In this document: positions 124 through 25,730 of the stretch, piece after piece | Numbering within the stretch: position 1 is the stretch's first letter | Layout of the letters: each line of letters opens with the position of its first letter | NCBI RefSeq assembly: GCF_001307295.1 | Contig: NZ_CP012700.1 | Span: 2,979,001 to 3,043,000 of the forward strand | Length of the DNA: 64,000 nt | Source: Sphingopyxis macrogoltabida | GTDB lineage: Bacteria > Pseudomonadota > Alphaproteobacteria > Sphingomonadales > Sphingomonadaceae | Direction: 5' to 3' | Made by a program: the position numbers and the translations under genes | The notes under the pieces: generated by a model | Database searches by the model: none | Seen by the model: only the letters and a program-made list of their open reading frames with translations | What the model was told of the DNA's origin: nothing

Positions 124-137
124 CCAATGCCGGGACA
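124..137 (-). promoter_or_regulatory. Candidate regulon operator, site A (half-conserved)
   Basis: On the minus strand this reads TGTCCCGGCATTGG. The right-hand part CGGCATTGG is identical to the best copy at 5998-6011, while the left half-site CCAAT is lost. It lies between the dehydratase-like gene and the LysR1 gene, 29 bp from the LysR1 ATG. Support comes only from similarity to the other sites. Confidence 0.4.
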
Positions 138-166
138 GTATCAATTGATGCGACGAGTGGAATCAA

Positions 167-1084
167 ATGGATATCATGTGGCTCGAGGACTTCATCAAAC
201 TCGCGGATGAAGGCAATTTCTCCCGCGCCGCCGAGGCGCGCAACCTGACCCAGCCGGCCTTCAGCCGCCGCATCCGCGCGCTCGAGGACTGGGTCGGCGC
301 GACGCTGGTCGATCGCGATACGCACCGGATCGCCCTCACCGAAGCGGGTCAGGCCTTTCGCATCCTCGCCGAAGAGATATTGCGGCGGCTGACGCTTGGG
401 CGCGATCATGTCCGCGAAATCGGCGGGACGCTGAGCAACGAAATCCGCTTCGCCTCGACGCACGCGCTGTCGACGACCTTTTTCCCGTCGTGGCTTCGCA
501 GCCTCAGCGACGGCCAGGAAGCGGGAACGATCACGCTGATCGCCGACAATATGGTGGCTTGCGAGCGCTTCATGCTCGAAGGAAAGGCCGATTTTCTCCT
601 CTGCCATCACCATACCGCGGCGGCGCACCGCCTCGATCCGGCCGGTTTTGCGTCGCTCCTCCTGGGACAGGACGTGCTGCTTCCGGTCGCGGCGCCGTAC
701 GAGGACGGATCGCCGGCACATCGGCTCCCCGGGTCGGGCGACCAGCCGCTTCCCTATCTGGAATTCGAGGACAAGTCGGGCATGGGGCGCATCCTGCAGG
801 CGGCGCAGGTGATCTCCGCAGGCTCGGCGGCGCTGCGCACGGTTTTCCGGTCGCATATGGCGACCGCGCTCCTGTCGATGGCCCGCGACGGCCGTGGGCT
901 GTGCTGGGCGCCGCTCAGCCTTGCCGGCGAAGATCTCGAAAGCGGACGCCTTGTCGCGGCGGGCGATGCGAGCTGGCACGTCCCGATCGAAATCCGCATC
1001 TACAAACCGATCGCGCGGCGAAGCCCGAGCGTCGAGGCCTTCTGGACGTCGCTGAAGAATCGGATCAGGTCGGAAGCCGCCTGA
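167..1084 (+). CDS. LysR-family transcriptional regulator (LysR1)
   Basis: 305 residues. The N-terminal winged helix-turn-helix spans about residues 4-63, with the typical segments FSRAAEARNLTQPAFSRRIR and LEDWVGATLVDRDTHRIALT. The remainder matches a LysR effector-binding region. It may start at M1 or at M4 (MWLEDF). It is a close paralogue of LysR2 at 13372: both share a WLEDF start and the QPAFSRRIRALEDW recognition region, so they may bind related operators. It stands at the left edge of a block whose promoters carry the CCAAT-N4-ATTGG motif, and it is a candidate to be the motif's binding protein. The effector is unknown. Confidence 0.9.
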   Translation: MDIMWLEDFIKLADEGNFSRAAEARNLTQPAFSRRIRALEDWVGATLVDRDTHRIALTEAGQAFRILAEEILRRLTLGRDHVREIGGTLSNEIRFASTHALSTTFFPSWLRSLSDGQEAGTITLIADNMVACERFMLEGKADFLLCHHHTAAAHRLDPAGFASLLLGQDVLLPVAAPYEDGSPAHRLPGSGDQPLPYLEFEDKSGMGRILQAAQVISAGSAALRTVFRSHMATALLSMARDGRGLCWAPLSLAGEDLESGRLVAAGDASWHVPIEIRIYKPIARRSPSVEAFWTSLKNRIRSEAA

Positions 1085-1141
1085 AAGCGCGCGCAACAAA
1101 GCTGCGCCAACCCCGCCCGCATCGCACGAATGATTCTATGT

Positions 1142-1155
1142 CGAACCGGCATTGG
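1142..1155 (+). promoter_or_regulatory. Candidate regulon operator, site B
   Basis: CGAACCGGCATTGG matches 12 of 14 positions of the consensus CCAATCGGCATTGG. It lies between LysR1 and the TonB-dependent receptor gene, 91 bp upstream of the receptor ATG at 1247. Confidence 0.6.
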
Positions 1156-1246
1156 GATCGATGACCGCATGTCCATAGACAGGATGGGCCCTTGCACTAT
1201 CCGGCAAACGAACGGCTTTGGCAGGGGTTCAGGGCGGAGAAAAAAC

Positions 1247-24118: not shown

Positions 24119-24124
24119 CGAAAA

Positions 24125-24195
24125 GGCCCGCCGCATATGCGCGGCGGGCCATTACGCCTCCCATGACCCGGCGCCTGGCGCCGGGTATTTTTTTT
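24125..24195. terminator. Bidirectional intrinsic terminator pair
   Basis: Hairpin 1 has arms 24125-24134 and 24141-24150 (perfect 10 bp); read on the minus strand it ends in TTTT and can stop the acyl-CoA ligase transcript. Hairpin 2 has arms 24167-24175 and 24177-24185 (CCCGGCGCC/GGCGCCGGG) followed on the plus strand by TA and eight Ts, ending the TBDR2 transcript. The two genes converge here. Confidence 0.85.
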
Positions 24196-25684
24196 AGCCC
24201 GGCCAGTAGCGTTCGCGCACCAGGCGCTTGAGCAGCTTGCCCGTCGGATGGCGCGGCAATTCGGCAACGAAGTCGATCTGCTTCGGCTGCTTGATCCGGC
24301 CAAGGCGTCCTTGGAGCGATTGCCGGATATCCTCGGCGAGCTCCGGTCCAGCCTCCGCCCAGTCCGCGGGCTGCACGACGGCAACGACGCGCTCGCCCAT
24401 TTCGGGGTCGGGCGCACCGATCACCGCGACATCGGCAACCCGCGGATGCGTGATGATCGCGTCCTCTATCTCCTGCGGGTAGATGTTGACCCCGCCCGAT
24501 ATGATCATGAAGCTCTGGCGATCGGTGAGGTAGAGATAGCCGCCGGTATCGACATAACCGACATCGCCGAGCGTCGTCCAACCATGGCGATTGCGGCTCG
24601 CCGCGGTTTTCTCGGGATCGTTATGATATTCGAACGCCGGGCCGTCGGCGAAATGGATCGCGCCGACCTCGCCGGCCGGCAGCGGATCGCCATCCTCGTC
24701 GCAGATCTTCAGCGTTCCCCAGATCGCGCGGCCGACCGAGCCCGGATGAGCGAGCCATTCCCCGGGCCCGATCGCGGTCAGCCCGTTGGCTTCGGTGCCC
24801 GCATAGAATTCGTGGATGATCGGCCCCAGCCACGCGAGCATCGCATGCTTGACCTCCACCGGGCACGGCGCCGCGGCATGATAGACGATGCGTAGCGACG
24901 AGAGATCGTAACGCCCGCGCGTTTCGGCGGGCAGCTTGAGCATCCGGATGAAATGCGTCGGCACGAACTGCGCATGGGTGACGGCAAAGCGTTCTATCAG
25001 CGACAGTGCCGCTTCGCCGTCGAACTTCTCCATCACGATCACGGTCCCGCCGAGCTTCTGGACCGCCATGCACCAGCGGAGCGGTGCCGAATGATAAAGC
25101 GGCGCCGGCGAAAGAAAGACCGTATCGGCGGCCATGCCATAGCTTGTCCGGCCGAACTCGGTCAGGGCGTTGGTTTGATCCAGCGACCCTTCGGGCAGCG
25201 CAGGACGGATACCCTTGGGCCGCCCGGTGGTGCCCGACGAGTAAAGCATGTCGATGCCGGGCGCTTCGTCGTCGATCGGTATGCCGGGAAACGCGACGCG
25301 TTCGGCCACGAAATCGCGCGCGCCGGGTGCGAAAATCTCGAGGCCGGTCACCGCAATCTCCGGAGACACGGGCGCCGACGCGATCAGCACGCGCGATCCC
25401 GAGTCCGCGATGATGAAAGCGATCTCGGGCGCCGCGAGGCGGGTCGATATGCAGGTGTAATAGAGCCCGGCGCGCTGCGCCGCCCAGACGATCTCGAAAA
25501 AGCGGGCGTCATTTTCCAGCATCAGCGCGATGCCGTCGCCGCGCACAAGGCCGAGCGCGCGCAACAGATGGGCGCCCTGGTTCGACCGGGCGTCGAGCTC
25601 GGCATAGGTAACGGTTTCGCCGGACCCCGCCATGCGATAGGCGGGCTTGTCGGGCGTGAGGCGAGCGTGGACGGACGGATGCAT
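24194..25684 (-). CDS. Acyl-CoA synthetase / AMP-dependent ligase
   Basis: 496 residues from the ATG at 25684 ([15 protein letters not shown] is a typical start for this branch, although the ribosome site is weak). Adenylation motifs: [12 protein letters not shown] (P-loop-like), [27 protein letters not shown] and the C-terminal lysine region PTGKLLKR. The protein activates a carboxylic acid as acyl-AMP and then acyl-CoA. It is convergent with TBDR2, and its own promoter carries a regulon motif, which links it to the block functionally. The acid substrate is not known. Confidence 0.9.
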
Positions 25685-25716
25685 GTGCCATGCCTGATCC
25701 GGCGAACGGATTCGGT

Positions 25717-25730
25717 CCAATCGGCATTCG
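25717..25730 (+). promoter_or_regulatory. Candidate regulon operator, site I
   Basis: CCAATCGGCATTCG matches 13 of 14 positions of the consensus. It is 32 bp upstream of the acyl-CoA ligase ATG on the minus strand and is the rightmost copy found. Confidence 0.62.

Follow-up and report, generated by a model that had tools for sequence, protein, structure and literature searches.

In Escherichia coli, the LysR-type regulator AbgR is encoded beside the AbgT transporter and the M20 hydrolase of the abgABT genes. The same association (a LysR gene beside AbgT and M20 genes) is found in a block of about 25 kb in Sphingopyxis macrogoltabida, which lies within the stretch of 64,000 nucleotides analysed here as a whole (NZ_CP012700.1, positions 2,979,001 to 3,043,000; hereafter, the window) and which differs from the E. 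coli system by also containing a TonB-dependent receptor, a penicillin acylase, an amino-acid-oxidase-type enzyme (DAO), a leuC-like operon and two LysR paralogues (LysR1 and LysR2). The best NCBIfam profile for both paralogues is that of HypT, the hypochlorite-responsive LysR-type regulator (NF007488, 120 bits), and the solved relatives of LysR1 include 5ydw, which we take to be a HypT structure; however, both proteins score far under the HypT equivalog cut-off (301), and they are tied here to catabolic genes.

An initial annotation had read the block as a single regulon, in which LysR1 or LysR2 would control about 16 genes through one palindromic operator of 14 base pairs (CCAAT-N4-ATTGG, hereafter the 14-mer). 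We consider, with a probability of roughly 0.84, that two LysR-type regulons lie side by side and that the 14-mer is a chance overlay of their two different site types (box A and box B), so that these genes more likely form two systems than one; the block probably holds two sets of breakdown genes, each under its own control. The regulons are of an ordinary kind, and the feature is real but was partly misread. LysR-type operators carry a T-N11-A motif (PMC5002191, PMC11739112), and the operators in the excerpts of these two studies resemble both boxes (each AT-N11-AT) as well as their setting, with regulator genes divergent to targets and sites just upstream of a putative -35 element; they differ in that the letters and target sets of both boxes were not seen in the literature examined, itself partial. 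Excerpts of the footprinting study among them (PMC5002191) also describe how the nearness of site and promoter yields long spurious motifs, which is the same trap as here. A thin literature search (mostly titles and abstract starts) found neither regulon described, no 14-mer in the papers listed for it, and no publication joining three of AbgT, penicillin acylase, TonB-dependent and LysR.

Box A and the proposed LysR1/LysR2 regulon

Alignment of the upstream regions with those of genome G150 and locus L070 (G and L being our handles for genomes and loci) revealed conserved islands that are larger than the 14-mer, which covers just part of them. The element they contain, box A (GCAT-n3-TTGAT-n8-GGCATTGG, in T-N11-A register), precedes the leuC-like operon, the TonB1/AbgT genes, the M20/penicillin acylase/DAO genes, the S9 peptidase and the HAD/PLP/RidA genes (PLP, pyridoxal phosphate). 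All five islands have an AT exactly 11 bases ahead of the AT of GCATTGG (at 124 and 13277 on the minus strand); the initial annotation had named these sites without requiring a T-N11-A operator. The CCAAT/ATTGG palindrome, proposed as the dyad recognised by a dimer, does not behave as such: at the M20 site the centre of the palindrome (6004.5) differs from that of the T-N11-A dyad (6001), and the two changes seen in the G150 M20 site (one of which L070 has too) are symmetric about the dyad and not about the palindrome. In distant LysR loci the element is nearer to a perfect dyad (e.g. TGATGCCGGATCGGCATTGG in L071), and in some outgroups box A is close to the palindrome ATGCC-N5-GGCAT.

With a 20-site matrix built outside the window, the five sites lead the window (37.9, 32.9, 29.5, 26.9 and 23.1 bits; next place 13.7). 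A strict matrix of 11 sites, which leaves out G150 and L070 as orthologous to the window, gave four of them 26.6-30.8 bits against at most 18.8 in 30 shuffles (preserving, as in all our matrix-score shuffles, single-base content only), and no score of 26.6 or more was obtained in 266,580 bases taken from other loci (L158-L164, L171-L184 and L040-L069, the last fetched for the 14-mer; not individually screened for LysR1 relatives). Two copies had been ranked as weak: the one at 124 is the top box A site by both matrices, and the one at 13277 is second by the strict and fourth by the 20-site matrix. A 15-site profile run over the whole genome returned four places with an expectation value (E) below 0.03, all in this cluster (leuC/LysR1, TonB1, HAD and S9/LysR2). 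Furthermore, the exact core AT-N9-GCATTGG, fixed before 78 loci with LysR1 relatives were retrieved from GTDB genomes, occurred 5 times at no more than 300 bases from a LysR start, where 0.14 occurrences were expected. For searching entire genomes the core proved too short and was rejected (8-29 matches in each of 13 genomes, with LysR1 or without), and longer profiles were therefore used; a GCATTAG variant was picked post hoc, and its count (10 loci versus 0.2 expected) is not used as evidence.

LysR1 matches at E 1e-40 occur in 10 of 249 family genomes, the own genome included (the scan of GTDB for LysR relatives covered the best 80 of 583 relatives), and G150 harbours LysR1 (89%) and LysR2 (82%) within a syntenic cluster. 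Of six further genomes that were scanned and carry a LysR1 relative, box A reached E <0.02 in G150, G225 and G209 (all used in training) and in the non-training G110 (E 0.016, with the LysR1 relative about 3.7 kb away). Six scanned genomes without a LysR1 match (G042, G122, G001-G004) had no box A below E 0.27, and G021, G035 and G382 (LysR1 status not listed) none below E 0.07.

Box B and LysR3

The second element, box B (AT-n2-AT-N11-AT...CCGATTGGAC), precedes the P450, acyl-CoA ligase, APH and SnoaL1 genes, and all four of these sites are AT-N11-AT. Its candidate binder is a third LysR gene, LysR3, which does not figure in the initial annotation. All three regulators have an N-terminal HTH_1 domain and a LysR substrate domain; the stretch TQPAFSRRIRALEDW of the helix-turn-helix (HTH) region is identical in LysR1 and LysR2 and different in LysR3, which fits two binding specificities. 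LysR3 scored 101.9 with TIGR03339 (aminoethylphosphonate LysR), under the cut-off of 341.1. Besides a second locus of the own genome, 6 of 396 other genomes have a LysR3 relative at E 1e-60, and LysR3 stands divergent to a P450 gene (68-75% identity) at that second locus and in G021, G035, G177, G382 and G152. Across seven aligned LysR3/P450 intergenic regions, ATTGGAC is present in 7/7 and GATTGGAC in 6/7, while CCAAT stands at the position proposed for the 14-mer in G021 only.

The T11-N11-A23 pattern of box B is present in 12/12 outside sites, 9 of which were chosen by eye among 19 pattern matches in five loci. A 9-site matrix from outside the window placed the ligase, P450, APH and SnoaL1 sites (scores in Table 1) ahead of the next place at 6.5 bits and of the top of 20 shuffles at 15.9 bits; in 1,365,482 bases of loci retrieved with LysR1 as query (L071-L149, not screened for LysR3), there were 0 matches at or above 17.3 bits and 3 at or above 13. 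A 12-site profile run over the own genome gave two matches at the second LysR3 locus (used in training), as well as the ligase and P450 sites (Table 1) and two other places at E 0.79. Box B was found at E <1e-6 in 5/6 other LysR3 genomes (G021, G035, G177, G382 and G152, each of which contributed to training), and no box B below E 0.07 was returned for ten scanned genomes that lack a LysR3 match. On the other side of LysR3, a second box B copy precedes the APH-family genes that adjoin this regulator in L158, L159, L160, L161 and L164, which are distant homologues of the window's APH (27-32% identity); in L163 the ligase forms a unit of its own with a box B copy ahead of it. Ligase orthologues (66-73%) are present in 5/7 LysR3 loci.

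The second LysR3-P450 locus of the own genome (L164; C1:2298000-2317999) comes with APH and two good box B sites, and also contains aldehyde-dehydrogenase-like and SDR-like frames (both by eye). Weaker box-B-like sites (21-22 bits) were observed upstream of TonB2 homologues at L158:3612 and L159:16776, which suggests from sequence that a TonB2-type receptor may belong to the LysR3 regulon in these two loci.

Proposed mode of action

From the sites, their orientation, their conservation and their co-occurrence with the regulators, we infer binding. LysR1 and/or LysR2 would bind box A and, when the signal is present, most likely activate the leuC-like, TonB1-AbgT, M20-acylase-DAO, S9 and HAD-PLP-RidA units, whereas LysR3 would bind box B and most likely activate P450-SnoaL2-TonB2, the ligase, APH and SnoaL1. 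All nine boxes are oriented toward the gene that starts just downstream. Box A ends on a putative -35 element (TTGGnn); in box B, the AT-n2-AT-N11-AT is followed 20 bases later by the putative -35 element TTGGAC, contained in GATTGGAC (-35 and -10 elements were assigned by eye). If the -35 assignment is right, the box A dyad lies near -42, a register that fits activation from just upstream of -35, and each LysR is thus presumed to sit on its box just upstream of that element and to activate upon effector binding.

This arrangement would also account for the 14-mer, whose right arm (ATTGG) would consist of an A plus the putative -35 TTGG of box A promoters, and whose left arm (CCAAT) would be the putative -35 TTGG of box B promoters on the opposite strand. 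Both arms are found together only at the M20 site, whose box B score is 2.1 bits (no fit). The P450, APH/NTF2 and ligase genes, which had been placed in the LysR1/LysR2 regulon, have sites that lack the left AT of box A (AC at the APH site, GC at the P450 site and CG at the ligase site) and that score 3.5-9.0 bits with the strict box A matrix versus 18.9-38.0 with the box B matrix. A LysR1/LysR2 regulon with a common operator is thus supported for five sites (leuC-like/LysR1, TonB1, M20, S9/LysR2 and HAD), or about half of the block. The gene sets suggest that regulon A may serve the uptake and breakdown of N-acylated amino compounds, and that regulon B may oxidise a terpene- or lipid-like acid and activate it with CoA.

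Several observations weigh against two adjacent LysR regulons as described above. The M20 site scores 23.1 bits with the 20-site matrix, which includes its G150 orthologue, but only 13.1 bits with the strict one. It thereby ranks seventh in the window, after two further places with 13.8 and 13.1 bits, and such a score is background, occurring 8 times in the 266,580 bases used for comparison; its genome E of 0.72 stands beside an out-of-cluster place at 0.70. Its membership is therefore taken from the conservation of its AT-N11-AT in G150 and L070, and from G225, where a box A that itself served for training lies ahead of a transporter-M20-S9-acylase run. The APH and SnoaL1 box B sites were not recovered at E <=1 when whole genomes were searched with the profile. 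G057 and G182 have a LysR1 relative and no box A at E <=1, and G296 has a LysR3 relative and no box B below E 0.19. The exact box A core is present in only 5/78 LysR relatives, and the best match of profile R1 outside its training loci has an E of 0.045; box A drifts or is absent in many LysR1 relatives. Two further points concern the 14-mer itself: at up to 2 mismatches it occurs near LysR starts 6 times against 0.34 expected (78 loci), and the complete CCAATGCCGATTGG is present at the P450 site of G021. Lastly, the training sites were hand-picked by the analyst: out of 36 LysR loci examined, 11 entered the 20-site matrix, 7 the strict matrix and 6 profile R1, with box-less loci left out of training, and the second own-genome locus (L164) was included in box B training. 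On balance, the boxes mostly go with their regulators in the genome scans, with exceptions.

Alternative explanations

The best-surviving variant, contained within the probability given to two adjacent regulons, is that LysR1 and LysR2 split the box A sites between them, yielding three regulons. Box A sites do vary in spacer and upstream part, and both paralogues are retained in G150; against this, the HTH-region stretch TQPAFSRRIRALEDW is identical in the two, and G225 has one LysR1 relative (E 1e-40) yet three good boxes, so that we regard the split as possible but rather doubtful.

Far more speculative is the idea that both regulons contribute to a single pathway for natural products that are N-acylated or amide-linked, with LysR3 competing with LysR1/LysR2 at the M20 promoter. 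If true, regulon A would import the conjugate, split it (TonB1, acylase, M20, S9) and burn its amino part (DAO, RidA, PLP enzyme), regulon B would oxidise and activate the released acid (P450, ligase, APH), and the two halves would be coupled at the M20 promoter, where both cores overlap.

Slightly less probable still, and in our judgement quite unlikely, is the original proposal of one dimeric regulator (LysR1 or LysR2) acting on CCAAT-N4-ATTGG at six strong sites across 25 kb. The six strong copies of CCAATCGGCATTGG are indeed where they had been placed, with 2 mismatches at 1142, 0 at 5998, 2 at 14334, and 1 each at 17761, 20067 (minus) and 25717. Their non-coding position beside gene starts holds given the starts chosen (TonB1 1247, HAD 14436, P450 20128, ligase 25684), although longer open frames extend across some of them. 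At up to 1 mismatch the 14-mer occurs 7 times in the 5.1-Mb genome, 4 of them within this 25 kb; this clustering is real, yet the 14-mer marks the regulator poorly. Across ten chosen relatives it has 0 to 9 such copies per genome: G150, with its LysR1/LysR2 cluster, has none, while G042 carries 7 without a LysR1 match (E 1e-40). In its looser form (up to 3 mismatches) it is not enriched in the window (12 versus 9.9 expected, with 31/100 shuffles reaching 12).

Conservation points the same way. With up to 1 mismatch, the palindrome stands near the LysR start just once in the 78 LysR1-relative loci (2 strand counts versus 0.71 expected), and its CCAAT half is not kept among the P450 promoters, notwithstanding the complete copy of G021; the enrichment at up to 2 mismatches could be explained by overlap with box A or with other LysR sites. 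The box A/box B cross-scores given above leave no single matrix that fits all members, and comparison with relatives splits the copies into two LysR-type promoter elements. The palindrome was dropped as an operator on these grounds (no single matrix, no retention near LysR starts or P450 promoters, copy numbers in relatives) and on the count of CCAATNNNNATTGG, which at up to 1 mismatch has 65 genomic places.

That the common letters are ordinary -35 elements only, with no regulator-specific sites, is the least credible explanation, for although ATTGG coincides with the putative -35 TTGG in both site sets, positions upstream of -35 are conserved as well and the boxes mostly accompany regulators in the scanned genomes.

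Gene content of the block

The coordinates of boxes and genes are collected in Table 1. Behind the leuC-like gene comes a leuD-like frame, recognised by eye, and then an alpha/beta-hydrolase-like gene. Of these, the leuC-like and the hydrolase-like gene (window 1-64; L215:7116-10064) were seen to be kept with LysR1 relatives in L033, L070, L035 and L071, and leuC alone in L078 (14 loci searched). In G150 (L033:16386-18945), about 2.6 kb of additional sequence separates the acylase and DAO genes. An RND gene (AcrB-family, CzcA-like by eye; 24953-28915) abuts the ligase end of the block; its N-terminus is missing (the Pfam match starts at profile position 48) and an in-frame stop near 26732 divides it in two; this remnant may mark an island edge.

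Table 1. Predicted regulator boxes and genes of the block, in window coordinates (box A scores by the strict matrix, box B scores by the 9-site matrix; E, whole-genome expectation value)
Feature	Position	Strand	Remarks
Box A, leuC-like/LysR1	120..153	-	directed at leuC-like gene (start 64, minus); 30.8 bits; E 1e-4; kept in G150, L070
Box A, upstream of TonB1	1126..1159	+	26.6 bits; E 0.0014; kept in G150, L070
Box A, upstream of M20	5982..6015	+	sole place with complete 14-mer
Box A, S9/LysR2	13273..13306	-	directed at S9; 27.0 bits; E 0.0275; kept in G150
Box A, upstream of HAD/PLP/RidA	14318..14351	+	26.9 bits; E 0.0014; kept in G150
Box B, APH	17757..17808	-	18.9 bits
Box B, SnoaL1	17796..17847	+	17.3 bits; overlooked by the 14-mer
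Box B, upstream of P450	20033..20084	+	31.3 bits; E 0.0275
Box B, upstream of ligase	25713..25764	-	38.0 bits; E 2.5e-6
leuC-like gene	start 64	-	732 bits versus cut-off 531; crosses window edge left of LysR1
LysR1	167..1084	+	Pfam HTH_1, LysR_substrate; nearest profile HypT; candidate box A binder
TonB-dependent receptor TonB1	1247..4252	+	Pfam on longer frame; start chosen 1247, open frame from 1130
AbgT-family transporter	4344..5954	+	Pfam ABG_transport, 664 bits
M20 amidohydrolase	6070..7266	+	Pfam; TIGR01891 above cut-off
Penicillin-acylase-family hydrolase	7190..9709	+	Pfam; true start probably downstream of 7190
DAO, FAD (flavin adenine dinucleotide)-dependent amino-acid-oxidase-type enzyme	9723..11117	+	Pfam
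S9 prolyl-oligopeptidase-family peptidase	11128..13215	-	Pfam; start chosen 13215
LysR2	13372..14271	+	LysR1 paralogue, 51% identity; same TQPAFSRRIRALEDW in HTH region
HAD-superfamily hydrolase	14436..15065	+	profile matches
PLP enzyme, alanine-racemase-N / D-serine-dehydratase type	15062..16210	+	profile matches
RidA-family protein	16227..16622	+	Pfam; slightly under TIGR00004 cut-off
APH/EcKL-like kinase-fold protein	16639..17736	-	Pfam; true start possibly near 17703 (by eye)
SnoaL1 (NTF2-like)	17895..18980	+	Pfam on longer frame; 60% identity over 117 residues in L160
LysR3	18977..19945	-	Pfam on longer frame, NCBIfam; candidate box B binder
Cytochrome P450	20128..21381	+	closest solved structure by sequence, P450-terp
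SnoaL2	21378..21824	+	profile match
TonB-dependent receptor TonB2	21872..24118	+	profile match
Acyl-CoA ligase	24194..25684	-	Pfam on longer frame; best profile FadD4, under its cut-off; start chosen 25684

Significance

The analysis replaces a doubtful motif by two concrete operators, for which regulators and targets are predicted, and provides an example of how -35 elements beside regulator sites on opposite strands can mimic a single palindrome. Moreover, it proposes an operator for a HypT-like group of LysR regulators that is kept with leuC-like genes in the organism's own family and in two Methylobacteriaceae loci.

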